Shown piece after piece: positions 7,232 through 59,158 of a stretch of DNA of 64,000 nucleotides (positions are counted from its first letter, which is position 1; every line of letters begins with the position of its first letter). The notes under the pieces are model-generated. The model saw only the letters and a list, made by a program, of their open reading frames with translations, was not told the origin of the DNA and did no database searches. The DNA lies in assembly GCF_001864895.1 (NCBI RefSeq), contig NZ_MJGO01000037.1, positions 480,759 through 544,758 of the forward strand. The letters run 5' to 3'. The position numbers and the translations under genes are program-made. The DNA comes from Curtobacterium sp. MCBA15_009 (GTDB lineage Bacteria; Actinomycetota; Actinomycetes; Actinomycetales; Microbacteriaceae).

Positions 7232-7251
7232 GGGCGGACGGGGGCCGGGAC

Positions 7252-8585: not shown

Positions 8586-8648
8586 GGCTCCCTTGTACCC
8601 ACCGCGCCGTGCCGGCCACTCAGCGGGTGTCCCCCGAGCGGTGCGCCG

Positions 8649-41866: not shown

Positions 41867-43228
41867 TCAGAACGCGCGGTCGAGTTCGCGCTCGCGGGCG
41901 GACTGGGTCATCGAGAACGCGACCCGGAGTGCCTCGCGCAGGTGACCGGAGTCTGCGCCGAGCACCGTCGTGAAGCCGAGGCGCTTCGCCTCGGCCACCC
42001 GCTGCTTCGTCCCCGTGGCCGGACGGATCTCGCCGGCGAGGCTGATCTCACCCACCGCCGCCAACGTGTGCGGGTACGGGCGGTCACGGGCGGCGCTCGC
42101 GAGCGCCAGTGCGATGGCGAGGTCGGCGCCCGGTTCGGTGAGCTTCATGCCGCCGACCGTCGAGACGTAGACGTCGGCATCGGAGAGCTTCAGCCCCGCG
42201 CGCCGTTCGAGGACGGCGAGCAGCATCGCCACGCGCGACGAGTCGACACCGTTCACCACCCGGCGCGGCTGCGGGGCCGAACTCGGCACGATGAGTGCCT
42301 GCACCTCGACCGGGAGCGCCCGACGCCCCTCGAGCGCGACGGTGACGCACGTGCCCGACACCGGGGTGGCGTTCTTCGACATGAACAGGCCGCTCGGGTC
42401 GGGGACCTCGTGGATGCCGTCGCCGGCCATGTCGAAGCAGCCGACCTCGTCGGTGGGGCCGAAGCGGTTCTTCAGCGCCCGGACGAACCGGAGCGCGGTC
42501 TGCCGATCGCCTTCGAAGTGGCAGACGACGTCGACCAGGTGCTCGAGCAGCCGCGGACCGGCGATCGTGCCGTCCTTCGTCACGTGTCCGACGATGAGGA
42601 CCGGCAGCGCGCGGTCCTTCGCGATCCGGATCAGGGTCGAGGCGACCTCGCGCACCTGTGACGTCCCACCGGCGATGCCGTCGATCGCGCCCGATGAGAT
42701 CGTCTGCACCGAGTCGGCGATGAGCAGGTCGGGCTGCACCTGGTCGATCTGCCCGATGATGACGCCGAGGTCGACCTCGCTCGCCAGGAAGAGCTGGTCG
42801 TGCATGGCGCCGGTGCGCTCGGCTCGCAGGCGGACCTGGTCGACGGACTCCTCGGCGCTGACGTAGAGGACGCGCTTGCCGGCGGCCGCCGCGCGCGAGG
42901 CGACCTCGAGCAGGAGCGTCGACTTGCCGACGCCGGGCTCACCCGACAGCAGCACCGCCGCCCCGGGCACGACGCCGCCGCCGAGCACCCGGTCGAACTC
43001 GCCGATGCCGGTCTGCCACCGCTGCACCGACGTGCCACGGGCCTCGGTGATCGGTCGGGCGACGCGCGTGCCGGTGACGGCGACCGCCGTGGTGCCTCGT
43101 GAGCTCGCCGAGGTGGCGGAGGAGTCCTCGACCGTTCCCCAGGTCTGGCACTCGCCGCAGCGGCCGACCCACTTCACGCTGGTCCAGCCGCACTCGGTGC
43201 ATCGGTAGAGGGACTGCGGGCGCGCCAT
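41867..43228 (-). CDS. radA: DNA repair protein RadA
   Basis: A 453-residue RecA-like branch-migration helicase that processes recombination intermediates. The N-terminal zinc finger (CTECGWTSVKWVGRCGECQT), Walker A GEPGVGKSTLLLEVA, the RadA-specific ALKNRFGPTDEVGCF (KNRFG), and a C-terminal Lon-like domain (VYVSTVGGMKLTEPGADLAI) are all present. Start at 43228, 7 nt after TAACCT on the reverse strand, consistent with leaderless expression. The SGNH gene lies just upstream on the same strand. Confidence 0.96.
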   Translation of the reverse strand: MARPQSLYRCTECGWTSVKWVGRCGECQTWGTVEDSSATSASSRGTTAVAVTGTRVARPITEARGTSVQRWQTGIGEFDRVLGGGVVPGAAVLLSGEPGVGKSTLLLEVASRAAAAGKRVLYVSAEESVDQVRLRAERTGAMHDQLFLASEVDLGVIIGQIDQVQPDLLIADSVQTISSGAIDGIAGGTSQVREVASTLIRIAKDRALPVLIVGHVTKDGTIAGPRLLEHLVDVVCHFEGDRQTALRFVRALKNRFGPTDEVGCFDMAGDGIHEVPDPSGLFMSKNATPVSGTCVTVALEGRRALPVEVQALIVPSSAPQPRRVVNGVDSSRVAMLLAVLERRAGLKLSDADVYVSTVGGMKLTEPGADLAIALALASAARDRPYPHTLAAVGEISLAGEIRPATGTKQRVAEAKRLGFTTVLGADSGHLREALRVAFSMTQSARERELDRAF

Positions 43229-43238
43229 GACGTCGAGG

Positions 43239-44357
43239 TTAGGCGGTGCCGCCGACATCACCCGACGGGCCGGCGGGCTGCTGTCGAGCGGGTTGCGCTC
43301 GGTCGTCGTGTTGGGTGGGCGCGGCTTGCTCGCCGTGGTGGGCGGGGGCGGTCTGCTCGTCGTGCTGAGCGGGGGCGGCTTGCTCGTCTGGGTGTCGGGC
43401 TGGGTTCGCGTCGGTGGCGTGCTCGTGCTCGTCGTGTGTCGCCGATGCCGTCATTCGCTGGCGGAGTCGCTCGACCGGGCCGGGGCTCTGCCGCCCCGCG
43501 TGGTCGAGGGCCTCGGCGCCCTCCGTGTCCTGCTCGGCGCGGGCGTTGGCGACGGCACCTGCCTCACGCCCCAGGTTCTCGGCCTCGCGAGCAGAGAGGT
43601 AGTGCCGGATCGCGGCGACGGTGTCCACGCGAGCATCCACCGCCGGCTCGAACGCACTCGCCCAGATCTCGTACCCGCGGTCGTTCGGGTGGAACAGGTC
43701 GCCGTAGCTGTTGAAGAACGTGCGCCGCAGCCCGACCCGCTTCGTGATGGTGTGCAGCGGCGCCACCGTCAACCCGAACTCGGCGGCCACCCGGTGCACG
43801 ATCTCGTTCGCCACCGCCACCTTGCGCTCCCGGTCCGGCACGAACATGCACGGCAGCTCGGCGACCACCGTGTGCGACGGCACGGCACCGTAGATCGCCC
43901 GGATGTTCCGCTCGAACTTGCCCGGGTCGAAGTCGGCGATGTCGTTCGCACCGATCGACACCGTGCAGACGTCGGGCGAGTAGTGCTGCAGCTTCGGGAG
44001 CTGGTCCCGCTTCGCACCCCAGGTCGTCGAGCCCGAGACGCTGAGGTTCACCACGCGCACCGACATGCGGGAGCGGTGTCGGATGCGCCGAGCGAGCAGG
44101 CCCACGTACCCGCGGGACGGAGCGGTCGCGCCCACGCCCTGAGCGGCGGAGTCGCCGATCGCCAGGTAGAGGAGCTGCCCCTCGTGCTGCTGGCGTTCGC
44201 GCCACCAGTCGGCATGGACCGGCAGCATGTCCACCACGCGCTGGGCAGCGGCGCGCTGGCCCTTCACTCCGGCGCGGGTACCGAGGGCGGCGCTGCCGGC
44301 GACGAGCAGGCCCCCGCCGATCGAGGACACCAGGGCGATGAGCGTGCGGGACTTCAT
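43239..44357 (-). CDS. SGNH/GDSL hydrolase with repeat tail
   Basis: A 372-residue protein. An N-terminal hydrophobic segment (MKSRTLIALVSSIGGGLLVA) may anchor or export it. The SGNH blocks are YLAIGDSAAQGVGA (block I Ser), NLSVSGSTTWG (block II), VSIGANDIADFD (block III Asn) and GDLFHPNDRG (block V Asp/His). Substrate is likely an ester of lipid or polysaccharide. The last 110 residues are low-complexity, with HDEQAAPAQ/HHGEQAAPT repeats of about 10 residues. TACCGT ends 7 nt before the ATG; 10 nt separate its stop from the radA start. Confidence 0.88.
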   Translation of the reverse strand: MKSRTLIALVSSIGGGLLVAGSAALGTRAGVKGQRAAAQRVVDMLPVHADWWRERQQHEGQLLYLAIGDSAAQGVGATAPSRGYVGLLARRIRHRSRMSVRVVNLSVSGSTTWGAKRDQLPKLQHYSPDVCTVSIGANDIADFDPGKFERNIRAIYGAVPSHTVVAELPCMFVPDRERKVAVANEIVHRVAAEFGLTVAPLHTITKRVGLRRTFFNSYGDLFHPNDRGYEIWASAFEPAVDARVDTVAAIRHYLSAREAENLGREAGAVANARAEQDTEGAEALDHAGRQSPGPVERLRQRMTASATHDEHEHATDANPARHPDEQAAPAQHDEQTAPAHHGEQAAPTQHDDRAQPARQQPAGPSGDVGGTA

Positions 44358-44499
44358 GCCGAGGACGGTACGCCGCAACGCTTCGTCCTCGACGAAGGTG
44401 CTGCGCGGATGTGGAGAGGGCCCTGGTGGCGACCGCCTGTGGAGGGCGAGCCGACCCTGGGTGACGGGAGGGGCCTCCTGATCGTGTATGATCTTTCCC

Positions 44500-44589
44500 G
44501 GTACCGTGTCCGAGCGGCCGAAGGATCATGTCTCGAAAACATGTGTGGGGGCAACTCCACCGTGGGTTCAAATCCCACCGGTACCGCCA
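44500..44589 (+). tRNA. tRNA-Ser (CGA)
   Basis: A 90-nt class II tRNA. The acceptor GGTACCG pairs with CGGTACC, the anticodon stem CATGT/ACATG carries loop CTCGAAA (anticodon CGA), there is a long variable arm (TGTGGGGGCAACTCCAC), the T-arm is GGGTTCAAATCCC, and CCA is encoded. TGTATGAT at 44485-44492 is an extended -10. It marks the left edge of the accessory island, a common integration site. Confidence 0.96.
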
Positions 44590-44594
44590 CAGAG

Positions 44595-44618
44595 AACCCC
44601 CGTTCACGCGGGGGTTTT
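44595..44618 (+). terminator. Terminator of tRNA-Ser
   Basis: AACCCCCG and CGGGGGTT enclose a 6-nt loop and are followed by TTCTTG, directly after the tRNA-Ser CCA end. Confidence 0.85.
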
Positions 44619-45140
44619 CTTGTTCCTGGGAGTGGTCGTGGTGCGTCTTTGGTGCAGGTCTCGTTCGGGGTATCCCGTGCTGCGGTGCCCCATGGTCGGG
44701 CGCAGGCACAGCCGAAGATTGTTCGACTCGATGTCGGAGTCAGATCCGTGCGCTGATCAAGCGGGCAGCCCTGTCCAGGGGTCCGCACCTGTAAGCCCGT
44801 GCTGGGCCGAATCGAGCTGACCTCTGCTTCGCGCTGCGCAAGATCTAGATCAGCGGGCAGATGTGTGGCGACGGCGTGGAGAGGACCCCAGAACCGCAGG
44901 CTCCCCCCATCGGCGCGAGTGGCAGTCGGGTGCACCTCATCACAACGTGACGCCATCGGCTGCCGCCTCGGCCGCGTCGCGGCTCCGACAACTGCTACGC
45001 GGGACTTGTGGGGTGCTTCTCGATTGCGGTCGAGCGACAGCATCGCCCGCGGCTTGGCCCGGCGAGTTGCCGAAGGCGTGGGACGGCCCCCAAGGTGAGC
45101 CTTGGGGGCTGACTCATGTCGGGCACCGTAGGAGCGCCTC
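44619..45140. other. Gene-free left end of the island
   Basis: About 520 bp with no convincing frame on either strand. Base composition falls toward the right. A 10-bp perfect hairpin ends it (45086-45109). It may be the decayed edge of an integrated element. No copy of the tRNA 3' end was seen here beyond the tRNA itself. Confidence 0.45.
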
Positions 45141-45148
45141 TGTAAGAT
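45086..45148 (+). promoter_or_regulatory. Hairpin and -10 box upstream of AIPR gene
   Basis: GCCCCCAAGG (45086-45095) and CCTTGGGGGC (45100-45109) form a perfect 10-bp stem with a TGAG loop, insulating the gene from read-through. TAAGAT at 45143-45148, preceded by TG, looks like the promoter -10 for the AIPR gene. Confidence 0.5.
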
Positions 45149-45181
45149 TTGCTCACCATCGGCAAAACAGTCAGGGACGTC

Positions 45182-46921
45182 ATGCCCAGCAACGAGCGCA
45201 ACCTAATCGATCACCTCACCCAGGAGGCTCAAGCGAGCCGAGCCGTCCCTTACCCAGACGACATTGCGTTCGAGTTGTTCGCCGCGGAGACGATGCTCCG
45301 AGATCGCAACCTAAGCGAAGAGGAGATTGAGTCAGGCCGCATTGGGGGCGGGAAAGATGGCGGGATTGATGCCGTGTATACCTTCGTTGACGATGCCCTC
45401 CTCGACGAGGACTGGACGATGTTCGACCAGGACGCACCGGCGAGCAAGATCCGCAAGGGTGTTGAGCTCGAATGCGTCTTCATACAGGCAAAACGGGAGG
45501 AATCCTTCACTGAGACCGCTTTCGACAAAGCGGAATCCTCTCTGAGGAGACTGCTGAGTCTCGAGAGCACGGACGCTGAACTGCTCGTTCTGTATTCAGC
45601 GGAACTCATCGGACGCGTGCGACTCTTCACGGAGGCTTGGAAAAAGCTCCTCACGCGATCCCCGAAGATCAGCTTGCAATTTGCCTATGTAACACGCGGA
45701 GAGACTGAAACGGCTGGCCCTCCGGTTGTAATGAAGGCGAATGATCTGCGCAAGCTTCTTGAGGAGTGTGTCCCCAACGCATCTGCACGTGTGGACCTCG
45801 TCGGTGCCAGCCAGCTTTGGGAGCGCGCCAGTACGACACCCGAGTATGACTTGCAGATTCAGTTCGATGACTATGTAACTCGCGGCCAATCGTATGCCGG
45901 TCTGGTGACTCTGAATAACTATCATAAGTTTCTTTCCGACGAAGCCGGAAACCTGCGACCCCACATCTTCGATTGGAACGTTCGAGACTTCCAAGGGGAC
46001 GTGACGGTCAATCGCGAAATCCAGCGCTCGCTGGAAACCGTGAATGGCGACGATTTCTGGTGGCTGAACAACGGAGTCACCATATTGTGCTCAAAAGCAG
46101 TGATCGGGGGCGGGAAAACCTTCACCCTCGAAGGTGTGCAGATCGTGAACGGGATGCAGACCTCCCACCGCATCCACACAGCGGTTAGCTCCTCGGTGGA
46201 GGGCGATGGCTTTGAAGGTGATCGTGCCGTTCAGGTCCGCGTCATCGAGACTCAGGATGAAGCGGCTAGAGATCGCATCATCCGCGCGACGAACAGCCAA
46301 ACGAAGGTTCCCGACGCATCGTTGCACGCTACAGAAGAGATCCATAGGCAGATCGAGGCGCACTTCCTCGCCAACGGTTGGTTCTACGACCGTAGGAAGA
46401 ACTTCTACAAGAACCACGGCAAGCCCTCGGATAAAATCATCGGCATCCCTGCTCTCGGGCAATCGATCATGGCTATTGGGCTGAGTAGGCCAAATGACGC
46501 AAGGGCTCGGCCTACCACAATTCTGAACGCCGAGAACGACTACAACAGCATTTTTGATTCGTCACTTCCACTCAGTGTTTACCTGTGGGTGGCGCGCGTT
46601 CAAAAGATGGTAGATCAGCTGCTACTCAGTGAGCCCGACGCGGCGCTTCGTGCAAACTTCCGATACTATGTCAGCTTGTACTGGGCGACTGCTCGTTTCG
46701 GTGCGCGAATCTACAGTCCCAAGCAGCTTGTTGAGTTGTCTAGGGCAGGCGAAGTTCCTTCGCTACTCGAAGTTATGAATGTCTTGTCTGAGATTGAATC
46801 TCTCGCGAGTACACTTGCCGTACAGCAGGACTGGACGCTAGATAGAGTGGCGAAGAATAGGCTCCTCACGGAGCTCGTGATCGATGAAGCTCTCGCGGGT
46901 GCCCCCGAGCCTGCTGAATGA
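45182..46921 (+). CDS. AIPR-family abortive-infection phage-resistance protein with PD-(D/E)XK-like N-terminus
   Basis: A 579-residue protein. The N-terminal 150 residues look like a nuclease core: GKDGGIDAVY (Asp59, Asp63), then Glu97 and FIQAKRE (Gln102, Lys104) in the D...E-x-(Q)xK order of PD-(D/E)XK enzymes. The central and C-terminal part matches AIPR (NVRDFQGDVTVNREIQRSLE; DDFWWLNNGVTILC; LEGVQIVNGMQTSH; IIRATNSQTKV), a family linked to abortive phage infection. GC content is clearly below the neighbourhood and AT-ending codons are common, indicating transfer. ATG at 45182 has GGGA upstream; a TTG at 45149 overlaps the -10. Next gene is a DNA methyltransferase. Confidence 0.87.
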   Translation: MPSNERNLIDHLTQEAQASRAVPYPDDIAFELFAAETMLRDRNLSEEEIESGRIGGGKDGGIDAVYTFVDDALLDEDWTMFDQDAPASKIRKGVELECVFIQAKREESFTETAFDKAESSLRRLLSLESTDAELLVLYSAELIGRVRLFTEAWKKLLTRSPKISLQFAYVTRGETETAGPPVVMKANDLRKLLEECVPNASARVDLVGASQLWERASTTPEYDLQIQFDDYVTRGQSYAGLVTLNNYHKFLSDEAGNLRPHIFDWNVRDFQGDVTVNREIQRSLETVNGDDFWWLNNGVTILCSKAVIGGGKTFTLEGVQIVNGMQTSHRIHTAVSSSVEGDGFEGDRAVQVRVIETQDEAARDRIIRATNSQTKVPDASLHATEEIHRQIEAHFLANGWFYDRRKNFYKNHGKPSDKIIGIPALGQSIMAIGLSRPNDARARPTTILNAENDYNSIFDSSLPLSVYLWVARVQKMVDQLLLSEPDAALRANFRYYVSLYWATARFGARIYSPKQLVELSRAGEVPSLLEVMNVLSEIESLASTLAVQQDWTLDRVAKNRLLTELVIDEALAGAPEPAE

Positions 46922-47017
46922 AGTCGTTGAAGGATGAGTGGTCGCTACCTGATCGAGCCGTGTGCGTCGCGGGAGGTAGGAGGCTCGTATGACGGAGGGC
47001 ACCGTTAGGCTCTGAGG

Positions 47018-48187
47018 GTGCCTACCGTCGTCGACATCGCGTCTGCCCGCCCAAAGGTTCTCGAGTTCTTCGCCGGCATCGGGTTGGCGCGGATGGGGTT
47101 GGAGAGCGCGGGCTTCCGCGTTGCGTGGGCGAACGACTACGAGCCGGACAAGTGGGACCTCTATCGCAGCCACTTCAACGACCCCGAGGACGGCGCGCAC
47201 AGCTTCTCCCTTGGCGACGTTGGTGCCGTCGATGCGGACCAGCTACCAAGGGACGCGAAGCTCGCCTGGGGCTCGTCACCGTGCACTGATCTGTCACTCG
47301 CCGGCGCACGTGGAGGTCTCCGCGCCGGGGAGTCCAACGCGTTCTGGCAGTACATACGTCTCCTCGACGAGCTCGGTGACGACCGTCCTGAAGTCGCAGT
47401 GTTGGAGAACGTGGTCGGATTGGCGACCTCTCACGGTGGTGACGACCTCGCCGCCGCTGTCCGCGCATTCAACGATCTGGGTTACTCGGTCGACGTGCTC
47501 GCGCTCGATGCCCGACGCTTCATCCCACAGTCACGGCCGCGGTTGTTCCTCGTAGGGGCCATGAACCCGCCCGAGGACACAGCGGAACCCAACAGCGAGC
47601 TCCGCCCGGACTGGTTGCAGGCCGTCTACGGCGACCCGACCCTGCGCACGCATCGGGCACCGTTGCCCACTCCGCCGGCACCGCTGCTGTCCGGGTTCGG
47701 AGAATACGTCGAGACGATGCCCTCCAACGACGAGCGCTGGTGGGACGCCGCACGAACGGAGGCGTTTGTGGCGTCACTATCTCCGTTGCAGCGTGAGCGG
47801 ATCGCGGAAATGCGCCGCGGACAAGGCATGAAGTATCGGACGGCCTACCGCCGCACGCGCAACGGTGTCGCGGTGTGGGAGGTCCGCCCTGATGACATTT
47901 CCGGTTGCCTCCGCACCGCTCGGGGTGGGTCCTCGAAGCAGGCTGTGGTGAAGCTCGGTAACAAGCGGCTTCAGGTCCGATGGATGACACCGCTCGAGTA
48001 CGCACGCCTCATGGGTGCCGGCGACTACAACCTCTCCGGGGCCCGCACCAACCAGGCCTTGTTCGCGTTCGGTGACGCCGTCGCTGTGCCCGCAGTTTCC
48101 TGGCTCGCAGAGCACTACCTGATGCCGCTAGTACGCGGCGAGCTTGCTGCGCAGGGCATTGTCCCGGCGAAGGAGCACCGTGGGTAG
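47018..48187 (+). CDS. DNA (cytosine-5-)-methyltransferase
   Basis: A 389-residue C5 methyltransferase. Motif I LEFFAGIGLARMGLES (SAM binding), motif IV SSPCTDLSLAG with catalytic Cys89, motif VI VLENVVGLA (Glu130), motif VIII QSRPRLFLVGA, and C-terminal motifs IX/X (TPLEYARLMGAGDYN; ALFAFGDAVAVPAV) are in order, with a target recognition region at about 190-300. GTG start at 47018, 6 nt after a TAGGCT box, suggests leaderless expression, as for many host genes. Its last 8 nt overlap the GIY-YIG gene, so the two form a coupled pair, as in type II restriction-modification. Confidence 0.94.
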   Translation: MPTVVDIASARPKVLEFFAGIGLARMGLESAGFRVAWANDYEPDKWDLYRSHFNDPEDGAHSFSLGDVGAVDADQLPRDAKLAWGSSPCTDLSLAGARGGLRAGESNAFWQYIRLLDELGDDRPEVAVLENVVGLATSHGGDDLAAAVRAFNDLGYSVDVLALDARRFIPQSRPRLFLVGAMNPPEDTAEPNSELRPDWLQAVYGDPTLRTHRAPLPTPPAPLLSGFGEYVETMPSNDERWWDAARTEAFVASLSPLQRERIAEMRRGQGMKYRTAYRRTRNGVAVWEVRPDDISGCLRTARGGSSKQAVVKLGNKRLQVRWMTPLEYARLMGAGDYNLSGARTNQALFAFGDAVAVPAVSWLAEHYLMPLVRGELAAQGIVPAKEHRG

Positions 48188-48974
48188 TCGCGGGATCGCG
48201 TCGTACAACGACGCAGACGGCAAACCGCCGTCGAAGCGGTCCATGCCGACCAGGTTCGTGCAGCGGTTTCGGCAGCTGCTCTCCGACGCTCTGGCCAACG
48301 TCGACGAGGCCAGTGGCAAGAAGCTCAACAAGTGCATCGGCGTGTACGCGTTTTACGACTACGACGGCGAACCGATCTACGTCGGACAGACATGGGAAGA
48401 CTTTGGCACGCGCGTCGGTCGGCACCTTCGCGGCCAACGCACCGACACCCTCGCCTACCGAATCCTCGACCCGTTCGAAGTCGCGGAGATGGAGCTCTAC
48501 CCGGCCGAAGACGCTCGAGCGTTGCCAAAGGCGGAGAAGACTGCCGCGATCGATGCTCTGGAGTACTCGGTCTATCTCACGGCGATTGAAAGATCGAAAT
48601 ACCGCGCGATCCTGAACGAAAAGATCCCGCCGGTGTCGCCGAGGATTACACTGCCTCGCTCGTACCGGTTCCCCCTGGTCCCAAACGACATGCGCGAGGA
48701 TCGCGAGCACCCGGACGTTCGCATCGCCCGTCGGGCAGAGACGCTTGCGCGAGTCGCCGCGGTCGCCCACGAACGTGGCGAGGTCTCATCTGGTCTACGG
48801 CGCGTGATCGTCATCCAAGCGGTCCGGCTCGCAGACCTCGCCGCCGCCCGATTGGCCTACGCAGAAGGTCGATCCCGTCCTGCTGCGACTGCGATCGACG
48901 TCCAGGGGCTGGTCGGCAGTGTGATGGCAGAGTACGGCGATGAAGACTCAGAGGCCGACAGCACCGATGCTTAG
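48180..48974 (+). CDS. GIY-YIG nuclease, probable restriction endonuclease partner of the methyltransferase
   Basis: A 264-residue protein from a GTG at 48180. The GIY-YIG core is complete: Tyr56 in GVYAFYDYDGEPIYVGQT, Tyr67, Arg78/Arg81 and His82 in TRVGRHLRG, Glu128 in ALEYSVYL, and Asn146 in ILNEKIPP. The N-terminal 40 and C-terminal 110 residues are helical and may recognise DNA. An adjacent overlapping C5 methyltransferase and a His next to the catalytic Arg are features also seen in GIY-YIG type II restriction enzymes such as Eco29kI. A repair or homing role is less likely given the overlap. Recognition site unknown. Confidence 0.82.
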   Translation: MGSRGIASYNDADGKPPSKRSMPTRFVQRFRQLLSDALANVDEASGKKLNKCIGVYAFYDYDGEPIYVGQTWEDFGTRVGRHLRGQRTDTLAYRILDPFEVAEMELYPAEDARALPKAEKTAAIDALEYSVYLTAIERSKYRAILNEKIPPVSPRITLPRSYRFPLVPNDMREDREHPDVRIARRAETLARVAAVAHERGEVSSGLRRVIVIQAVRLADLAAARLAYAEGRSRPAATAIDVQGLVGSVMAEYGDEDSEADSTDA

Positions 48975-49106
48975 CAAGCTCACCTAGCTGAGCTTGTCGC
49001 TCTCTGCGTGGACCGGCAGCGTCGCGGGGCGAGAAGAAAGACCGACGGTGAGCGGCCACGCTCGCGGCGCCGCCAACTTCCGGTGATCCGCGTCTACGAT
49101 CTCATC

Positions 49107-49859
49107 ATGGAGGGGTCACCGGTCAAGGGCGCACACATGCTGAGCAAGGGGTATATCGCGGCATGGGCGGATGATCGAGGAGTCGTCTCGGTGATCGACA
49201 AAACACGTCAACGCGGTTACCCGGCCTCGGTGACGAAAGCCACGATCAGGAATTACGCCTACGTAACCAACGTAGTCACTCGGGACCTCGAAGATGACTA
49301 CTCGAAAATCGAAAGCGACGGCCTGCGCGCTATCAGGGGTCTCCGCAGCGGACAAACTGACCTCAGTTCCGCGTCCGTGGCCGCGATCATCGAGTTTTTG
49401 GAGATGCACCGGGAACGCGGTCAATACGCGGACCAGATGGACGCGAAGGTTCCCGCAGTCGCGATAGGCACAGACGGCAGTTTGCACGACATCGAGCTCT
49501 CCGTTGGTGACATCATCTTCCTCGGCCGGCACCGCACGGAGACACTCCGGCTTTCTTCGCTCGGCCTCGAGTCCTGGGAGTGGCGCGTGGAATCGTGGGA
49601 AGGTTCGCTTGCCACGGGCGACGGTGCCGTACTCCTCTTCCGTGAAAGCAGCACTGCCGCCGTGAGCACAGTTACCTTTCCGATCTCTCCCCACCAGCTC
49701 TTGGTGATCGGCACACCCCTGCAGTACGAGCGAATGCTGCCGAACCATTTGAACTTTTTTATTGCGGAACAGAGCCGGCAGTGGCTCGTGAGTGCGAGCG
49801 GCACGCTTCGCGCGGGTGACCTCACCGTCGTTGCTACGCCGCCGCCTAATGCGGAGTGA
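49107..49859 (+). CDS. DUF4238-like protein
   Basis: A 250-residue protein from ATG 49107; in-frame GTGs at 49083 and 49008 are possible starts. The N-terminal part (KGAHMLSKGYIAAWADDRGV, VSVIDKTRQRGYPASV, TRDLEDDYSKIES) follows the DUF4238 pattern of an N-terminal His, a YxxxW/F segment and a D-x-E/IE pair. The middle and C-terminal part is beta-rich (ISPHQLLVIGTPLQYERM). DUF4238 genes are common in mobile and defence regions, and their activity is unknown. It stands 130 bp after the GIY-YIG gene in the same direction. Confidence 0.55.
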   Translation: MEGSPVKGAHMLSKGYIAAWADDRGVVSVIDKTRQRGYPASVTKATIRNYAYVTNVVTRDLEDDYSKIESDGLRAIRGLRSGQTDLSSASVAAIIEFLEMHRERGQYADQMDAKVPAVAIGTDGSLHDIELSVGDIIFLGRHRTETLRLSSLGLESWEWRVESWEGSLATGDGAVLLFRESSTAAVSTVTFPISPHQLLVIGTPLQYERMLPNHLNFFIAEQSRQWLVSASGTLRAGDLTVVATPPPNAE

Positions 49860-50044
49860 TTACTCGCAATGCCGAGACCAGCAGTACATATTGCTGCTGC
49901 CGCCATCGTCGTCAAAGCAGTCGAGTAATGGCAGTCTTCTCGACTTCGAAAGGGCGAAACTGACATGCGAGCGCCGTGCCGGCGCGAACGAGAACAGCCG
50001 GCCGCGTTTCGGGGTGGTCGCATGTTTCGTCTAGGGGAATGGCG

Positions 50045-50284
50045 TTAGGGCGCGGTTTCGTACGCGTCGCGGAAGGCCTGGCTTCTGCGACAGTGTGAGC
50101 AGACCTCGTGACCGTTTGGGTTTGCCCACTCGCGGATCTTTGCGGCCTCGCCGGGGTTGACCAGCGCGGTCGTCCTCCACGCGGGGGCGATACCAGTTGC
50201 GACGTCCTCCCACGAGGAGCAGCACGGGCGTCGGTCGGGCTCGTCTGGTGGTGTTGGGTCACGCTCGCGCGACGATGACCACAT
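50045..50284 (-). CDS. Small Cys-containing protein, partner of RHH protein
   Basis: Seventy-nine residues starting MWSSSRERDPTPPDEPDRRP. A Cys pair (RPCCSSWED) and a C-terminal CSHCRRS could bind zinc. Its ATG shares a base with the stop of the upstream RHH-like gene (TGATG at 50282-50286), so the two are coupled. No family is recognised. Confidence 0.6.
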   Translation of the reverse strand: MWSSSRERDPTPPDEPDRRPCCSSWEDVATGIAPAWRTTALVNPGEAAKIREWANPNGHEVCSHCRRSQAFRDAYETAP

Positions 50285-50496
50285 CACACCTCGTCGCTCC
50301 GAAGCCGTTGTTCTACTCGGCCGTGGACGATGTCTGTGTAGCCAGACCGCTCGATCTCTCGTCGGATGAGAAGTCTGATGGACATGCCCGCATCGTGCTG
50401 ACGCTCCCACCAGTCGAGCACTGAGGTGTCGACCTTCGGAATCGAGATCCGCTTACGCTCGGACGTGCCGTCCGCGGCTTCCATCTTCGCCATCAT
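50284..50496 (-). CDS. Possible ribbon-helix-helix DNA-binding protein
   Basis: Seventy residues. ERKRISIPKVDTSVLDWWER resembles a ribbon strand and first helix, and SIRLLIRREIERSGYTDIVH the second helix of a MetJ/CopG-like fold. Such small proteins act as plasmid copy, mobilisation or antitoxin regulators. First gene of a two-gene operon with the Cys-containing protein. The assignment is by pattern only. Confidence 0.55.
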   Translation of the reverse strand: MMAKMEAADGTSERKRISIPKVDTSVLDWWERQHDAGMSIRLLIRREIERSGYTDIVHGRVEQRLRSDEV

Positions 50497-50708
50497 GTCC
50501 TGTTCCGATCGGGGCTCGCTTCTCAGTCTCCTGTTCCGGCTGGCAGACGTCGAACCGACGGGCCGGACTGATCCTGTTTCGGGCTGACATCTCGCGCGGA
50601 GAGAGCCACGGCTGAGGGCGTAGCCGCCGCGATCGATCAGGTTCGTTCGTCGTATTCAACGGCGTAGGCCGGTTACGCCGGCGATTGGTCAGACCCACCG
50701 GCGAGCTC

Positions 50709-51050
50709 CTAGGACAGCACTCTGGGCCAAGCGAGCGTGCCCTCGGCCTCGAGGCGGTTCAACTGCTCGATCAGGCGTTCTCGTGGGATCGAGTAGAGCC
50801 TTGGCTCCTGAACTGCCGAGCCCACGCGGTGAACCACCTCATAGCCGCGCTTCTCCGCGGGAGCAAGGAACATTGCGACACCAGACGGAAGCTCGAAGTA
50901 CCACGTGTCGTACACCCGCGCCGCACCGAGGTGGCCGCGTCGCAGCGAAAGCCATCCTCGAGGCACCAGCACTTCGTCGAGCGCGCTATCTAACCCTAGT
51001 TCGTAGTCGTCGTCATCGAATTCAGCATCGGTTCCGTCTTCGAAGTCCAT
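50709..51050 (-). CDS. Uncharacterised protein, third gene of small operon
   Basis: A 113-residue protein starting MDFEDGTDAEFDDDDYELGL, acidic at the N-terminus, then basic and aromatic (VPRGWLSLRRGHLGAARVYD; TWYFELPSGVAMFLAP) with a leucine-rich end. The start at 51050 is chosen because GAAGGA stands 6 nt upstream. An in-frame ATG at 51221 would overlap the previous gene by 80 bp. No family is recognised. Same strand and order as the two genes before it. Confidence 0.6.
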   Translation of the reverse strand: MDFEDGTDAEFDDDDYELGLDSALDEVLVPRGWLSLRRGHLGAARVYDTWYFELPSGVAMFLAPAEKRGYEVVHRVGSAVQEPRLYSIPRERLIEQLNRLEAEGTLAWPRVLS

Positions 51051-51141
51051 CGGTGTTCCTTCCCAGAAATTGCTGTCGTCATTATGGAAGCCGAGCGCAG
51101 AGGGGTCGCCGGCTACTAGGAAGCGCTTCGCGATCTCCCGC

Positions 51142-51381
51142 TCAGTCCCCGGCGTCGTCGATGCCCAGACGTCGAAGAGCGGGCCCGTACGCCTCGATCT
51201 GAGACAAGAAGATGAGCTCAACCCAATCGGTGATGTTGCTCCTCTCCTCGTCGGTCAGTTGCTCCCAGGAACCGAAAGTGGCTCTGCCGGATTGACTTAG
51301 ATGCCCCGTGACTACTCGAGCGGTTTCTTGGGCGTGAACTCGATGAAAGTCGTTCTCTCCTGAACTGAGCGATGCGCTCAC
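51142..51381 (-). CDS. Uncharacterised small protein, second gene of small operon
   Basis: Seventy-nine residues from a GTG (VSASLSSGENDFHRVHAQET). It is helical, with SWEQLTDEERSNITDWVELI as the most conserved-looking segment; such short all-helical proteins occur in phage and defence islands. The GTG overlaps the stop of the upstream gene (51378-51381), so translation is coupled. Function unknown. Confidence 0.6.
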   Translation of the reverse strand: MSASLSSGENDFHRVHAQETARVVTGHLSQSGRATFGSWEQLTDEERSNITDWVELIFLSQIEAYGPALRRLGIDDAGD

Positions 51382-52028
51382 AAGGTATCCCTGCCGTCGA
51401 TGAGGTCCAGGACTGCGGAGACCGCTCCGCCCGCCTGTAACCACTGATGAGGGGTCGTAGCGACCACTGCCCGCAACGAGTCTTGAGGGGTCGCCATGAA
51501 CGCCGCGTCACTCTGCCAACCAGCTCCGTCAGCCTCGAGGGACTCAAAGATATCTGGAAGGTTGCGAATCGTCTTCATCGGCGAATTGCGAGGGTCGAAC
51601 TGCCAATCGGGGAAGCGCAGCTGACCGTTCAGCTTGACAGGAACCAGGTGTCGACTTGCGACTCGGCGGACAAGCTCCTCGTCATCGATCTGGAGGAAGG
51701 CTTTCGTCTCTTCAACGGAGAGCGTGGCGCAGACCGAGTTGAGCCACGTCCTCACGATCTTCAGGTGGAGGTCACCCCGGCCGATTGCACTTGCTTCTCG
51801 ATCGATCGGCATCCCCAAGCTGGACGCCACATCCGCGAGGAGGAGCTTCCGGTCGTCGGCGGACAGAGATGGATCGGTTGACTGCATCGACCGCATGTGC
51901 TGCGTCAGCGCTTCGACCAGCCAGTCGCCGTCGACCTCGAGCCGAGCGAGGGCCTGCGCGAAACGATCGATCACCTCGCTGGTCGGTACGTGCGAGGGGG
52001 CGGCGGGCGGCTCTGAGTGACCTTGCAT
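51378..52028 (-). CDS. Possible DNA-binding antitoxin-like protein, first gene of small operon
   Basis: A 216-residue protein. The middle holds a helix-turn-helix-like segment (VEETKAFLQIDDEELVRRVA) followed by HLVPVKLNGQLRFPDWQFD. The C-terminus (TPHQWLQAGGAVSAVLDLID) has a WLxxG...VLDLIDG arrangement like the parS/MbcA-type domain of Xre-class antitoxins. The match is by eye and partial. Two small coupled genes follow, which could be a toxin or immunity set, although no toxin fold is recognisable. Confidence 0.55.
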   Translation of the reverse strand: MQGHSEPPAAPSHVPTSEVIDRFAQALARLEVDGDWLVEALTQHMRSMQSTDPSLSADDRKLLLADVASSLGMPIDREASAIGRGDLHLKIVRTWLNSVCATLSVEETKAFLQIDDEELVRRVASRHLVPVKLNGQLRFPDWQFDPRNSPMKTIRNLPDIFESLEADGAGWQSDAAFMATPQDSLRAVVATTPHQWLQAGGAVSAVLDLIDGRDTL

Positions 52029-52521
52029 GGGCTGCAGCTTGCACGCTCACGCCGGGTGCTGTCCAGTGCGCCGAGATTGCTTCTGATCTGGGCTTTTCAG
52101 TTTTCCACGTATACGAGGGAGAAACGCTCCGAAACCATGGAAAGACGGTCCGGTCATCAGCCGCGAGGCGCACTCACCGGCTCGCGAGGACTGCTGGGCA
52201 GACGGTGCGGTCCCTGCAGCGGCAGGCTCTCGGTTGACCAGATAGCTGCGATAACTGTGATTCTCGTCGGCCTCGATCCGACCCCCTGAAGTAACACTGG
52301 GCTGAGCTTGTCGGCGGGGGCAGAGGACGGCGATCACCTCATTGGCGGCCGTCTGATGAGTCCGGAGCTGGGCGTCCGACGACGTGACGTCGGCGGCAGC
52401 TGCGACAGGGGAAGCTGGGTGCATCTCGGATACTTCCTCGACAACTGAGCGGGAGCCCCGGACGCTGGTTATTGGCGCGAGAACGCAGCACGATGGGGAC
52501 GAGGGGCCGGGGAGGAAGCAG
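52029..52521. other. Divergent intergenic region
   Basis: About 490 bp between the reverse-strand three-gene operon and the forward gene at 52522. No convincing gene. TGGCGCGAG and GGGGACGAGGGGCCGGGGAG lead to a GGAGGA ribosome site at 52511. The promoters of both operons must lie here but were not identifiable by eye. Confidence 0.4.
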
Positions 52522-53094
52522 GTGAACGACGCAGAGGACGTGCCCGCTGCCGCGGACGGTCATCCGCAGCTCGGTTCGGTGCACAAGAACGGTGACCGCC
52601 GGTTCGGGACGACGGGGCTCTTAGCGAGTGTCTATGCCATCCGCGGAACGCCGCAGGCGTCGAACCTCTACCGCTCGAGCGTGGCCGAGCACATGCGTGG
52701 GGTGCGCTTGGGTGACGAGCTCTGTGTGCGGTGGGATGGAAGCCACTGGTGGGCGGCCTCACCCGCCGGGACGGTCGGACGGCTCACCTGGTCGAAGAAC
52801 CTCCGGGAGACGACTGCGTACGTCCCTTACGGCCGGAGGCCGTTCAACTTCAACGACGAGACGTTGCACGTGCAGAGCGTCACGATCATCGCCGCCGTCA
52901 AGGTCGTCAACTGCGGCGGGTACGTGGTGCCCGACAACTACGTGCCGGCGGACTGGCCGATGACGCCGATGCCGGACCCGGCGGAGCGAGAGCGGACCAT
53001 GACGATCGGCGTTCCCGTGCCGGCTGGAGCCTCGGAGGCGCGCGTCGCACCACCGCGACGCCGCGGGCGGTTCGGTCGGCTCACGGGACGATGA
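52522..53094 (+). CDS. Uncharacterised beta-rich protein
   Basis: A 190-residue protein from a GTG with a strong GGAGGA site 5 nt upstream. The central part (GLLASVYAIRGTPQASNLYR; GDELCVRWDGSHWWAASPAG; TVGRLTWSKNLRETT) alternates hydrophobic and charged residues like a small beta-barrel, and the tail is Pro/Arg-rich. No family is recognised. The next gene, a GIY-YIG protein, is 25 bp downstream in the same direction. Confidence 0.6.
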   Translation: MNDAEDVPAAADGHPQLGSVHKNGDRRFGTTGLLASVYAIRGTPQASNLYRSSVAEHMRGVRLGDELCVRWDGSHWWAASPAGTVGRLTWSKNLRETTAYVPYGRRPFNFNDETLHVQSVTIIAAVKVVNCGGYVVPDNYVPADWPMTPMPDPAERERTMTIGVPVPAGASEARVAPPRRRGRFGRLTGR

Positions 53095-53119
53095 CGATGA
53101 CCTCGAGGGAGTGGTGACC

Positions 53120-53740
53120 ATGAGCGACCAGGCAAAGGTGCCGGCGTCAGCAGTCGGGTACGTGTTCAGGACCGAACCGGCCGACAAGGCGTGGGCCTAC
53201 ATCGGTCAGAGCACGCGCCTCGACCCGAAGCATGTCGATGGCTACCTCGGCAGCGGGGCCTTCATGACCGAGGTGCTCGCGGAGTATGGCACCAGTGGCC
53301 TCACCAAGACGATCGTCGCGACGGCGGAGTCGCCTCTCGAACTGCACTACCTCGAGATGCTGCACATCGCCGAAGCCCGACGAGACGGTGTCCGCGTCGG
53401 CAACGGCGACTGCGGTGGTCCGCGACCGTTTCCGAACCTGCAGCGGGCGCTGTGGGAGGTCGCCCCGGCCGTGATGCGTGTGGCCGACGACCCAAAGCGG
53501 TTCTACGACGCGCTCGTGAAGCACCGCGATCTGGTCGAACAGGCGATCCTCGACTCGTCGAGTGTTCCGGTGGACGCGTTCTACGCAGGTATGGAGCGCG
53601 ATCTTCGCGCCACCGAGGACTTGTCCCACCCGTGCCCGTCGTGCGGCTCCGGAATCGGCGAGCTTTGCCGGACGAACTCGAAGTCACTCACCAAGCCTCG
53701 GAACCCCGTGCGGAACCACTCGAAGCGGCCGCGCTCGTGA
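53120..53740 (+). CDS. Phage-type GIY-YIG protein with C-terminal zinc-finger motif
   Basis: A 206-residue protein. VGYVFRTEPADKAWAYIGQS, then HVDGYLGSGAFMTEVLAEYG, GLTKTIVATAESPLELHYLE and EMLHIAEA follow the GIY-YIG order found in phage homing-type nucleases (Y...YIGxS, GYxGSG, Glu in the helix). The C-terminus CPSCGSGIGELC with RNHSKR is a short zinc-binding module common in actinophage proteins. It may be a free-standing homing or nicking nuclease. ATG at 53120 has GAGGGA upstream. Its TGA overlaps the next gene. Confidence 0.72.
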   Translation: MSDQAKVPASAVGYVFRTEPADKAWAYIGQSTRLDPKHVDGYLGSGAFMTEVLAEYGTSGLTKTIVATAESPLELHYLEMLHIAEARRDGVRVGNGDCGGPRPFPNLQRALWEVAPAVMRVADDPKRFYDALVKHRDLVEQAILDSSSVPVDAFYAGMERDLRATEDLSHPCPSCGSGIGELCRTNSKSLTKPRNPVRNHSKRPRS

Positions 53741-53913
53741 CGACGTACACGCCAGGAGAGCTGGCGGCCGAGCTCGGCTACACGAATGAGTCGCGGCCGG
53801 GAAAGGTGGTGCGGGAGTACATCCGTGAGAAGTACCCGGAGCACACCGGACTCTGGGACCTCGACGAGACACAGGCCGATGACGTGCGCGCGAACGTGCC
53901 TCGAGCGTCCTGA
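53737..53913 (+). CDS. 58-residue helix-turn-helix-like protein
   Basis: From a GTG overlapping the GIY-YIG stop (53737-53740): VTTYTPGELAAELGYTNESR, then PGKVVREYIREKYPEHTG. The first part reads as a helix-turn-helix (TPGELAAELGY...KVVREYIR). It is probably a DNA-binding partner translated with the nuclease. Too short to assign to a family. Confidence 0.55.
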   Translation: MTTYTPGELAAELGYTNESRPGKVVREYIREKYPEHTGLWDLDETQADDVRANVPRAS

Positions 53914-54151
53914 CTTGGCAACAAGCGGCTCTGATCAACGCGATCCCGGGGAGATTAATAGTCGACATGACTGTTGCGAGGCGGCCGATCGAATGGTTTC
54001 GGCGAAGCATAGAGTCCACGCAGCACAGGTTCTCGGGCGTCGACCGACGCGGCGTGACTGAACAGCTGCGGCGGAGAGCCGCACCCGTCGTCGGGCACGG
54101 GTGCTCAGGCTCGCCAGCCACTTCGGCCTACTCGAGGGCGCGATCGGACCA

Positions 54152-54619
54152 CATGTACCACTTTCGCGTTCGGAAACCGGTACAGGCTCGCGTGGCAGGT
54201 TTTCCCAGGTCAAACCGGCATTTGAGGGCTCGTGCAGGTGTGAGTCGTGTACCACTTTTGAGCCGTGATTTTCGAGAACCGGTACGCCCCACGAGCCCTA
54301 CTTCCCCAATTTTCCAAGGAAGTAGGAGGGTAGAGGGGCAGGTTGTACCGGTTGTACCGGTTTCTGCGAACCTCTACGCACGCGCGCATGCGCGCACACG
54401 CACGCATAGGGGTTCCTCGAAAGAAGCGGTACAACCGGTACACGGCACGCTTTCCCCCGATCAGGACCGCCTTCATGCGGGTCTGCTCCCGGTACACGAA
54501 GTGGAACATCGCGTGTGCCTACAATCGGTGAGGCGGCGAAAATCAGCCCTCTGAACTGGGGTTTTCGCGGCGTCGTTGAACGCGTGCCTGTACCGAGAAA
54601 TCCGGTACAAACCGGTACG
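54152..54619. repeat. Array of GGTACA/TGTACC elements
   Basis: At least eleven GGTAC-type or inverse TGTACC elements lie in 470 bp, most in the form ACCGGTAC or TGTACCGGT: near 54154, 54176, 54248, 54278, 54343, 54352, 54427, 54435, 54489, 54589, 54602 and 54611. Several are tandem (GGTTGTACC twice at 54341-54358) or paired head to head. A GTAGAGG/CCTCTAC inverted repeat (about 54329 and 54370) encloses one pair, and a CG/CA alternating tract (54377-54405) lies beside it. No gene is seen in 53914-54622. Confidence 0.85.
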
Positions 54620-54622
54620 ACG

Positions 54623-54656
54623 AAAAAACCCCGGGGAGCAGCTGCCCCTCGGGGGG
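54623..54656 (-). terminator. Terminator for reverse-strand gene at 54803-55273
   Basis: A GC-rich hairpin (CCCCGAGGGGCAGCTGCTCC then CCGGGG, reverse strand) is followed by six T residues. It lies downstream of the 54803-55273 gene, on its right-hand side of the GGTACA array. Confidence 0.7.
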
Positions 54657-54802
54657 ATCATTCATGTGGTCGACGCCGGCACGGCGTGTTCGCACAGGCT
54701 GGGCGCGTCACCCGATTGTGACGTGGCGCGCTGCTCTGCCCGCTGTTGGCGGGTGAGCGCATCGGATTGGACTTGCCACCCCCGGTCTGTCAGTCACGCC
54801 GG

Positions 54803-55273
54803 TCACTCCTCGTGCGCTGACGCTCCGGGCGCTGCCATCAGCTGCAGCCGCTGCGCGGCCTCGACGCGCGCGTGCGCTTCGTCGTCGATCGCGACTCGGA
54901 CGACCTCGACACCGCTGTCGCGGAGTGCCGCGGTCAGCCAAGCCTTTGGCCGCATCAGGTACTGCTCGACCCCGACGTCGATGACCGCGATGACGAGCCG
55001 AGTCGCCTCGAGCTTCCGGCCGGCCCAGAGGAGCTTGAAGGCGTCTGTCGCGAGCTTCTTCGGCTGCCCGCCTCGAAGCGCGCCGACGTGCGCGTACGCC
55101 TCGACGAGGACCTTCCGGTCCTCGGACGCTCCGTCGAGCTCGACACGGACGCCGTCCTCGAACTCGACGCGCGCCGGCGCCAGCGGCACTCCGACGTGCG
55201 CCGCGATCGCGGCGATGATCAACGGCTCGACGTCGCGCCGAGCGAGGGAGTCGGATGCGTGCGCTGTGCTCAC
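54803..55273 (-). CDS. Uncharacterised protein, possible PD-(D/E)XK-like fold
   Basis: A 156-residue protein from a GTG (VSTAHASDSLARRDVEPLII). VRVELDGASEDRKVLVEAYA, then HVGALRGGQPKKLATDAFKL and ATRLVIAVIDVGVEQYL suggest an alpha/beta nuclease-like core with acidic residues and a conserved Q-x-KK...D helix. Proteins of this type occur as orphans in actinobacterial genomes and mobile elements. No function known. The reverse-strand terminator at 54623 fits it as a single-gene transcript. Confidence 0.6.
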   Translation of the reverse strand: MSTAHASDSLARRDVEPLIIAAIAAHVGVPLAPARVEFEDGVRVELDGASEDRKVLVEAYAHVGALRGGQPKKLATDAFKLLWAGRKLEATRLVIAVIDVGVEQYLMRPKAWLTAALRDSGVEVVRVAIDDEAHARVEAAQRLQLMAAPGASAHEE

Positions 55274-55900
55274 GGCCGCAGCGTACCGACTGGGGGCCGC
55301 CGGCACTGGTCGGTCACTGGCGGGCCCACTGTGGGTCTTGCGTGGCCGGAGCGGGACCGCTGCGCTCCCTCTCGCTGTCGCTTGATGGTCGCTGCAGAGT
55401 GATCCGCCCACTTGCTGACCGACAAGTGACCGCCGTATGGTCACGGCATGGCCATCCGACGCTGAACGCGTCCGGGTGGCCCCCTTTCTCCTCCGATGCG
55501 CCATCGAAGGAGCTTCGGCGGTCGCTTCGCGGCCCAGAGAAGGCCGCCCCTGGTCAGAATTTGCCCACGAGTGGCGCAGCCGTGACCAGGAACGGGGCAC
55601 CGAAGCCCGGTGCTGAACGCACCGCATGTGGCTCCCAGCGTGAGGGCGCTCGGTCTCGTGGCTGGACCTGAGTCACACCTGTTGTTACGAGCCTCGTTCA
55701 CGTGCACTCCACAGTCGCGCTCGAGGGGAGAAAGGAGAACCCAAGGGCGCCGCTGAAGCGGGCGGCAGCGGGACCCGTCACGGCGTCGTTCCTCCCCCGT
55801 GACGATGTGGCCATGGCGCTACGCGAGAGGTTTCCGCGATGCTTCGACCTGCGCTGCTTGCGAGGGCCAAGGCAGCCGCGTGCCCGCGTCTGCGTCGGGG

Positions 55901-56092
55901 TTGATCAGGTGTTGATCCGCAGGCTCCTCAGCCCCTGGCGTCGCTGCGCTCCATGGGTTGATCCCCGGCGTCACGACGCCCAGAACCGTGGATCAACCCA
56001 AACCCCGACTTCCCGCGCGAAACGGATGCCACTTGATCACCACCACCAGACTTGATCCTTCGGAGCTGGTGTTGATCAAGATGAGGCTGATC
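55901..56092. repeat. TTGATC repeat cluster (possible iterons)
   Basis: TTGATC(A/C) occurs at 55901, 55912, 55958, 56033, 56052 and 56072, with inverse GATCAA at 55991 and a CTGATCC variant at 56087: eight in 190 bp. GGGTTGATCC (55956-55965) and GGATCAACCC (55990-55999) form a perfect 10-bp inverted repeat. The density resembles replication-initiator binding arrays; no Rep gene is recognised in the window. Confidence 0.7.
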
Positions 56093-56450
56093 CATCCGTT
56101 TCTCCCGATCACAGCAGCAATCGTGACCTCGATCCGTCGCTGAAGCTCCGGATCTTCGCGGCAGAGAAGAAGGGCATAAGGGGGACTGACGCCGACCTGC
56201 GTTTCCTTCCTCGCTGCGCTCGTCGGAAACTGGTTCGTCGGTCGGCGTAGCCGACAGTCCTTCGGAACCCCCTGAGACCTTCGCTGCGCTCGGTCTCCGG
56301 GTGCCCCTCACCCGTCGTCGCTGGCGCTCCTTGGGGCCCATACTGCGTCGCTACGCTCCTTGCCCTCCAACGCCCCGTCGGGGGCGTTCTCGGGTGCCTT
56401 GCGCCGCTGCCGCGCCTCCGCTTCGCTCCGTCTCGGACACCGGCTGCGAG
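55940..56450. repeat. Dispersed CGCTGCGCTC hairpin motifs
   Basis: GTCGCTGCGCTCC (55940), CTCGCTGCGCTCGTC (56210), TTCGCTGCGCTCGGTC (56281), GTCGCTACGCTCC (56346) and CTTCGCTCCG (56422) recur. Several are the loop of longer hairpins, for example GAGACC-TTCGCTGCGCTC-GGTCTC. Related motifs recur at 58327-58370 and 60732. Function unknown. Confidence 0.6.
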
Positions 56451-56845
56451 CCGCCCTTCCGGGTCGGCGGCACTATGCGGCGGCGCCGCGAGAGAGGCCT
56501 GTGATGAAGCGCCCTCGGGGCGGTGGAGCAGGGCGTGAAGCTGCGGAATCATTTCTCAAATGATTCGCCTCGAAGTCTCCCAGGTGAGTCGCTTGGGAGA
56601 GACGCTGCTCGCGCGAGCAGCCCCGCGGCGGTTTGCACAGGACCGGCAGAGTCAGGTAGCTATGAAGGGGGCGCTCATGTGTCCGGCGTTGTCCGAGACA
56701 GTCGCATCAGGTATGGTGAACGCACGTCTGAATGAGATAAAAGGACTAGGGCCACTGCAGGCTCGACGAGTGGGTACGCCAAGCAACCGTTAACAGGTTC
56801 GGCTCCAAAGGCCTCCTCGGAAGCATCGACTTTCGAGGAACACCT

Positions 56846-57073
56846 ATGTCTCAGACCACTCTCGCTCCGCTCGCGCAGCCCAGCGATCTGCTCACCCCTG
56901 ACGCGCTGGCCGCTCGGCTCCATGTGACGACCCGTAACTTGCGGCAGTGGCGCGTCACGGGAGCGGGCCCACGGTTCATTCGCGTCGGGCGATTTCCGCT
57001 CTACCGGCAGGAAGCCGTCGAGGCGTGGCTTCTCGAGCAGGAGTACGCCAGCACCGCCGACGAACTGCGCTGA
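56846..57073 (+). CDS. Excisionase-like helix-turn-helix protein
   Basis: A 75-residue protein. LLTPDALAARLHVTTRNLRQ followed by WRVTGAGPRFIRVGR and YRQEAVEAWL is the MerR-like HTH_17 domain of excisionases, which bend DNA at attachment sites and switch integrase to excision. GAGGAA precedes the ATG. The integrase follows 2 nt after the stop, the usual xis-int order in actinobacterial integrative elements. Confidence 0.88.
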   Translation: MSQTTLAPLAQPSDLLTPDALAARLHVTTRNLRQWRVTGAGPRFIRVGRFPLYRQEAVEAWLLEQEYASTADELR

Positions 57074-57075
57074 GA

Positions 57076-58225
<1,150 letters not shown>

Positions 58226-58322
58226 CGTCTTGATGCCCGAGCCCCATCGCACGACACCGTCTCGCATTGGTCACCTTGCCGGAACCAGTTTCGGACCAGC
58301 TAGATGAGACAGTCGAGGCCTG

Positions 58323-58405
58323 TGAGCAGCTTCGCTCTGTGTCGCCCTTCTCGCTGCGCTCTGTGTCGCCCTGCGCTCTGTGTCGTGATCGCGTCCCGGT
58401 AGCCG
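58323..58405. repeat. GCTCTGTGTCG direct repeats
   Basis: GAGCAGCTTCGCTCTGTGTC then two further CGCTCTGTGTCG units lead into GTGATCGCGTCCC. The same sequence without the extra units occurs at 60725-60757 (GAGCAGCTTCGCTCCGTGTC, then GTGGTCGCGTCCC). Intergenic. Confidence 0.7.
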
Positions 58406-58453
58406 ATGCACGTCCGGATGTACCGCGCCGACTCGTATGCCAACCTTGAACAT

Positions 58454-58942: not shown

Positions 58943-58950
58943 CCGATCCT

Positions 58951-59139: not shown

Positions 59140-59158
59140 ACGAAAGGACCCGGCGCCC

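Follow-up and report, generated by a model that had tools for sequence, protein, structure and literature searches.

A probable type II-like restriction-modification pair and a probably separate AIPR gene in one tRNA-Ser island of Curtobacterium sp. MCBA15_009

Recognition of CCGCGG is taken as a mark of the R.Eco29kI-like GIY-YIG restriction enzymes. A short list of GIY-YIG restriction enzymes is given in the available part of PMC4081073, and the active site of R.Eco29kI is described as Y49, Y76, R104, H108, E142 and N154 in the accessible portion of PMC1952068. Neighbourhoods of AIPR genes and restriction-modification (R-M) genes were already described in papers of 2008 and 2012, which, in the sections available of each, also propose suicide or dormancy as a back-up to restriction (PMC2292703, PMC3506569). 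The present analysis concerns a stretch of 64,000 nucleotides of Curtobacterium sp. MCBA15_009 (contig NZ_MJGO01000037.1, positions 480,759 to 544,758; hereafter the window), in which an AIPR gene was found to be followed by the genes of a C5-cytosine DNA methyltransferase and a GIY-YIG nuclease. No paper on AIPR together with a GIY-YIG nuclease and a methyltransferase was found in the one open-access library searched. The three genes are likely to represent two separate defence units in one tRNA-Ser island, namely a type II-like R-M pair and an independently acting AIPR, and an apparent single system is thereby split into two. The genes, and the DNA that the pair has in common with its relatives, are the following:

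45182..46921, + strand: AIPR / AbiU-family protein of 579 amino acids (Pfam AIPR, PADLOC AbiU)
47018..48187, + strand: C5-cytosine DNA methyltransferase of 389 amino acids, putative modification half of the R-M pair (Pfam, PADLOC)
48180..48974, + strand: GIY-YIG nuclease of 264 amino acids from GTG 48180, predicted restriction endonuclease of the pair
47005..48975, + strand: the R-M pair without AIPR, a common DNA unit with Curtobacterium and Clavibacter relatives (84-88% identity)

The three frames were found to be intact and co-directional at 45182-48974, and the place and strand given for them in a preliminary description of the window were borne out by the open reading frames (ORFs) and by the Pfam and PADLOC matches. 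These are real genes, and both the pair and AIPR belong to known kinds of defence genes. The methyltransferase matched Pfam DNA_methylase (6.1e-41) and PADLOC MTase_II (7.2e-172), and it contained invariant Pro88-Cys89 residues followed by invariant Glu130-Asn131-Val132 residues among 11 sequences. The GIY-YIG start overlaps the methyltransferase stop (48185-48187), and an AAGGAG sequence ends four bases before GTG 48180; the alternative start is ATG 48243, and the residue numbering of the preliminary description agrees with the GTG.

A scan of the contigs of the whole genome collection with the GIY-YIG alignment gave 375 relatives, and the closest 80 loci were kept, several of which end early at contig edges. 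The methyltransferase was found by profile search in 79 of these 80 loci, the one locus without a match being L114; it was located upstream on the same strand in 75 loci, downstream on the same strand in three and on the other strand in one. In 70 of the 75 upstream cases no more than 250 bp separated the hidden Markov model (HMM) matches of the two genes, and when 64 close pairs were tested, the GIY-YIG frame of 61 had a start codon no more than 40 bp from the stop of the methyltransferase gene. A GIY-YIG match was present in 14 plasmid records, and in all 10 that were opened a methyltransferase of the same family was found nearby, whole or in pieces. It was placed directly upstream in the plasmids of Curtobacterium, Arthrobacter, Mycobacterium and Mesorhizobium, and looser arrangements were found in other Proteobacteria. 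The viral-contig GIY-YIG loci contained a nearby methyltransferase in eight of nine cases.

Of the 80 loci, 41 contained a Vsr homologue, as would suit a 5-methylcytosine system; around the window's own pair no Vsr was found among the ORFs scanned. The conserved linkage (79/80 loci) supports the earlier claim that the methyltransferase and the GIY-YIG nuclease are an R-M pair, and they look like an ordinary, little-characterised pair of type II-like kind. Such pairs represent a tightly linked R-M family that is spread through numerous genera of actinobacteria and some further phyla, though in a small minority of genomes; when 396 genomes of the phylum were searched with the GIY-YIG protein alone, only its own genome gave a match. 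The recognition site of the pair is directly measurable. A second C5 methyltransferase gene was found in the same genome (G000:C23:460664-462139).

The preliminary description had tentatively joined AIPR to this pair in one compact, layered module, in which restriction by the pair would come first, and AIPR would kill or arrest the cell once restriction failed or methylation disappeared. Such a module is now considered improbable. AIPR was found in five of the 80 GIY-YIG loci and was not found in the other 75, and a fixed three-gene module was rejected as the main reading on this count. The order and orientation of AIPR also varied among the five: downstream of the pair it was convergent in two loci (L044 and L045) and lay close by in a third (L113), where the contig end interrupts it; upstream of the pair it was ~3.8 kb away in L056 and on the opposite strand in L059. 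The GIY-YIG plasmid loci contained AIPR in one of 10 cases (Arthrobacter plasmid L021, 2.4 kb upstream of the methyltransferase) and the viral-contig GIY-YIG loci in none of nine.

The DNA of the three closest relatives gave the same picture. Similarity to the window was found to start at 46980 (L056), 47005 (L020) and 47016 (L042) and to end at or near 48975, so that the shared DNA includes the pair and excludes AIPR. The only other matches of these relatives within 43000-60000 were 82 bp at 52377 (L020) and the tRNA end (L056). The available stretches of L020 and L042 contained no AIPR, and the AIPR of L056 is distant (26% identical); in the Curtobacterium plasmid L020, the place of AIPR upstream of the pair was occupied by a Mrr-type nuclease gene.

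Loci collected from the side of AIPR mostly lacked the pair. It was present in one of 13 plasmid loci opened (L021, with none in the other 12), in none of 16 viral-contig loci, and in one of 14 loci from the host's phylum taken with wider flanks (L211), two of which (L214 and L216) had hardly any flanking DNA on one side. The nearest tree relative of the window's AIPR, at 60% identity, is located on a Microbacterium plasmid in a DUF499/DUF1156 gene cluster. The GC content of AIPR (55.5%) was found to differ from that of the methyltransferase (66.1%) and the GIY-YIG gene (63.5%), which is suggestive only as a sign of separate origin. AIPR looks like a separately acquired, independently mobile gene.

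The AIPR protein matched Pfam AIPR (3.5e-38) and, over residues 5-569, PADLOC AbiU (2.8e-177), and the AbiU profile was matched by all 13 members of alignment A2. A D-D...E...QxK pattern had been proposed for its N-terminus, and this stood in part: Asp59, Asp63 and Lys104 were found to be kept in 31 of 31 sequences and Gln102 in 29, whereas the position of Glu97 was poorly conserved (E in 12 of 31, D in 9). Glu97 was rejected as a conserved catalytic residue because E is present in only 12 of the 31. The structural model of the protein (mean predicted local distance difference test score, pLDDT, 83.8; predicted template modelling score, pTM, 0.50) was found to contain a predicted PD-(D/E)XK nuclease at residues ~1-222, followed by a ParB-like region at ~233-375 and a helical C-terminus. 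Residues 1-222 were aligned with FokI (Z 9.2, root-mean-square deviation (rmsd) 3.0, ~142 residues aligned) and with MspJI (Z 8.1, rmsd 4.2, 136 aligned), and the N-terminal region also with Avs4 (Z 7.6) and HamA of Hachiman (Z 6.0), all four of which we take to be PD-(D/E)XK enzymes. The region ~233-375 was aligned with PadC, ParB and Noc (Z 5.8-6.1, 93-99 residues). A sequence search of solved structures gave two chance-level rows with the single protein and none with the profile. The conserved Asp59, Asp63 and Lys104 and the FokI and MspJI fold matches support the nuclease-like N-terminus proposed earlier, which is predicted to form a PD-(D/E)XK nuclease with a D...QxK-type motif on a matching fold. 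This anti-phage family is poorly understood, and the model gives it a nuclease plus ParB-like architecture that can be tested.

In the GIY-YIG protein, the residues Tyr56, Tyr67, Arg78, Arg81, His82 and Asn146 were found to be invariant and Glu128 nearly invariant among 48 homologues, in an alignment that leaves out rows L117 and L119, and Pfam GIY-YIG was found in all 48 rows. The complete active set named in the preliminary description is thus conserved, and the predicted fold is that of a GIY-YIG nuclease with complete active-site residues. The window's protein itself matched the Pfam family at 1e-5 (26.2 bits against a cut-off of 22.6). Its predicted structure (mean pLDDT 87.6) contained a long helical C-terminal part and was aligned with the GIY-YIG domain of UvrC (Z 8.2, rmsd 2.5, 93 residues), followed by I-TevI (Z 6.4, rmsd 2.8, 85 residues) and PD-T4-3 (Z 4.5, rmsd 3.5, 85 residues). 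Among solved structures, the sequence search with the single protein gave one chance-level row, and the profile search gave UvrC at E 0.11 with weaker or unrelated rows, R.Eco29kI not being listed.

A number of observations weigh against two separate units or against the roles proposed for them, and they are gathered here. The AIPR and methyltransferase genes are separated by 96 bp on a single strand and no terminator-like site was found on the + strand in a scan of this gap; co-transcription of the two is possible because they are so close and on one strand. The argument from GC content is weakened, since other island genes differ in base composition too. Long AIPR matches are rare: five genomes among 298 others of the family had one, as did, at E<=1e-40, seven among 395 others of the order, and because of this rarity the presence of AIPR in five of 80 loci near the pair exceeds uniform placement, by informal comparison. 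In a tree of 31 AIPRs, the six that stand beside the pair need three label changes, and only one of 500 shuffles was as low. The Arthrobacter plasmid, L211 and L137 likewise combine AIPR with the same methyltransferase family. With regard to the proteins, the available text of the 2012 paper gives AIPR proteins an N-terminal HEPN domain (PMC3506569). The ParB-like match, at Z ~6, is below the level that excludes chance arrangements, and Foldseek gave nothing for the AIPR model at E<=0.001. Foldseek also gave nothing for the GIY-YIG model at E<=0.001, with R.Eco29kI at E 2.5, and R.Eco29kI was aligned with that model at Z 3.8 (rmsd 4.4, 99 residues), a level at which unrelated proteins score alike.

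These points were weighed as follows. A layered module would be favoured by the short single-strand gap, by the recurrence of AIPR near the pair (5/80 genomic loci, 1/14 AIPR-centred loci of the phylum, and the Arthrobacter plasmid), and by the coupling hypothesis in print, as it stands in the available sections of PMC3506569. It would also be favoured by viral contig L137, which contained at 5944-10237, on one strand, AIPR followed by a methyltransferase of the pair's family, a PADLOC REase_II (2e-91) and Vsr. An excess of AIPR near the pair would likewise be expected if defence genes cluster in islands. In the tree, four of the pair-side rows formed one clade and the AIPRs of the window and the Arthrobacter plasmid stood in another; both clades also contained pair-less AIPRs as neighbours, and the four-row clade may reflect sampling because those four came from the GIY-YIG search. 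AIPR was found near a methyltransferase and another REase_II in the Azospirillum plasmid L034, and adjoining a type I R-M system in L038. A functional link, if any, is more likely to be with R-M systems generally than with the GIY-YIG enzyme. Separation of AIPR from the methyltransferase in other genomes, which the preliminary description had named as evidence against its module, was found at most loci; it is not complete, since AIPR turns up near R-M genes at a higher rate than its scarcity would suggest.

It is similarly doubtful, and no more probable than the layered module, that AIPR is a nucleotide-gated PD-(D/E)XK nuclease repeatedly recruited as a second-line guard for R-M systems with the same methyltransferase family. 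The restriction enzymes would then be interchangeable (GIY-YIG here, REase_II in L137), and the guard would be triggered by failed restriction or falling methylation. The ParB-like assignment is only a lead, given the Foldseek result and a profile comparison in which small alignments of DndB and GmrSD gave nothing for the middle region of AIPR (hhalign, probability <=0.13%); sequence kinship of that region to DndB or GmrSD is unsupported with these small alignments. The AIPR model gave no hint of a HEPN domain. AbiU2 is included among the HEPN families of PMC3710099, the available part of which does not equate AbiU2 with the AIPR of the window.

Slightly less probable still is a GIY-YIG enzyme that serves as a repair or modification-dependent nuclease working with the methyltransferase, rather than as the restriction enzyme of the pair. 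The repair nuclease UvrC supplied the top fold match, PD-T4-3, a 5-hydroxymethylcytosine-specific restriction enzyme, scored higher than R.Eco29kI (Z 4.5 against 3.8), and none of the solved restriction enzymes was matched significantly by sequence; this is opposed by the tight linkage and overlap with the methyltransferase and by the Vsr homologue of 41 loci, which would itself supply the repair nuclease. The low rank of R.Eco29kI in the fold searches neither shows nor excludes kinship with Eco29kI. That the three genes are decayed, functionless cargo of a mobile island with much unrelated cargo is very improbable, as the frames are intact, the catalytic residues are conserved and the GC by codon position has a coding-type pattern.

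The two-unit reading is accordingly preferred, with the following proposed roles. From its family and its linkage, the methyltransferase would modify a cytosine within a short recognition sequence, at which the GIY-YIG enzyme would cut incoming DNA that lacks the mark. AIPR would act alone as an anti-phage protein of the AbiU family, probably in an abortive response with presumptive trigger, target and outcome, and its ParB-like, possibly nucleotide-binding region may control the PD-(D/E)XK nuclease, if the predicted folds are right. AIPR genes settle beside several types of R-M system, the GIY-YIG pair included, in no fixed order, and AIPR and R-M may occasionally cooperate.

The defence neighbourhood described earlier is supported. 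The three genes are located in a ~43-kb island at tRNA-Ser bounded by 30-bp repeats. The other features of this region in the window are the following:

44500..44589, + strand: tRNA-Ser(CGA), integration site of the island (ARAGORN; flank in sister genomes)
44563..44592, + strand: left copy of the perfect 30-bp direct repeat at the tRNA-Ser end; its right counterpart is 43.5 kb downstream
49008..49859, + strand: DUF4238 protein just 3' of the pair (Pfam), not a conserved part of it
56947..58167, + strand: tyrosine integrase within the island (Pfam Phage_integrase 2e-16)

The right repeat copy is present on the same contig beyond the window. The upstream flank and the tRNA were strongly matched in 28 of 29 sister genomes, and in four of the 29 the tRNA end recurs within the contig at a distance of 8.7 to 29 kb, which indicates a recurrent integration site. 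In one of these four (L191), the right end matched that of the island described here (325 bp, 90%). In the Plantibacter contig L046 (5502-7705), the R-M pair adjoins a matching tRNA-Ser(CGA) and no AIPR was found; the match of this contig covers the window flank 43038-43257, within an ORF which we take to be radA. The tRNA-Ser site may be used by elements that carry the pair. In the Curtobacterium contig L056, a fragment of the tRNA-Ser end was found at 7968-8060, just past the pair.

DUF4238 was tried as a further component and rejected, as tblastn at 1e-4 gave no match in L020-L146, the 80 GIY-YIG loci included. Elsewhere in the same island (L187), an AAA ATPase gene adjoins a Mu-type transposase gene with a TnsB match (424-2624), followed by the presence of an enolase gene (6090-7424), which is located between the two repeats and is therefore probably island cargo. 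A putative phage zinc-finger domain protein was found within the island at 53111-53740 of the window (Pfam 1.9e-5).

Three known kinds of system are closest to the locus. Like the MORC-type R-M operons and the MZA system, the window contains AIPR next to a cytosine methyltransferase, but a MORC-type ATPase or helicase was absent among the window ORFs scanned with Pfam, and membership in MZA was rejected (MzaE 30.7 bits against a cut-off of 1050). The AbiU/AIPR family (PADLOC AbiU, Pfam PF10592) is represented by a near full-length AbiU match and a Pfam AIPR match above the cut-off, whereas the N-terminus is here predicted to be of PD-(D/E)XK type and is given as HEPN in the available part of PMC3506569. 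The type II R-M systems with GIY-YIG enzymes (Eco29kI, Cfr42I, Hpy188I) likewise contain a DNA methyltransferase beside a GIY-YIG nuclease. The enzyme of the window differs from R.Eco29kI in its lack of a significant sequence match, its weak fold match (Z 3.8) and its long helical C-terminal part, and by motif-based manual alignment the active-site residues of R.Eco29kI have likely counterparts in its Y56, Y67, R78, H82, E128 and N146.

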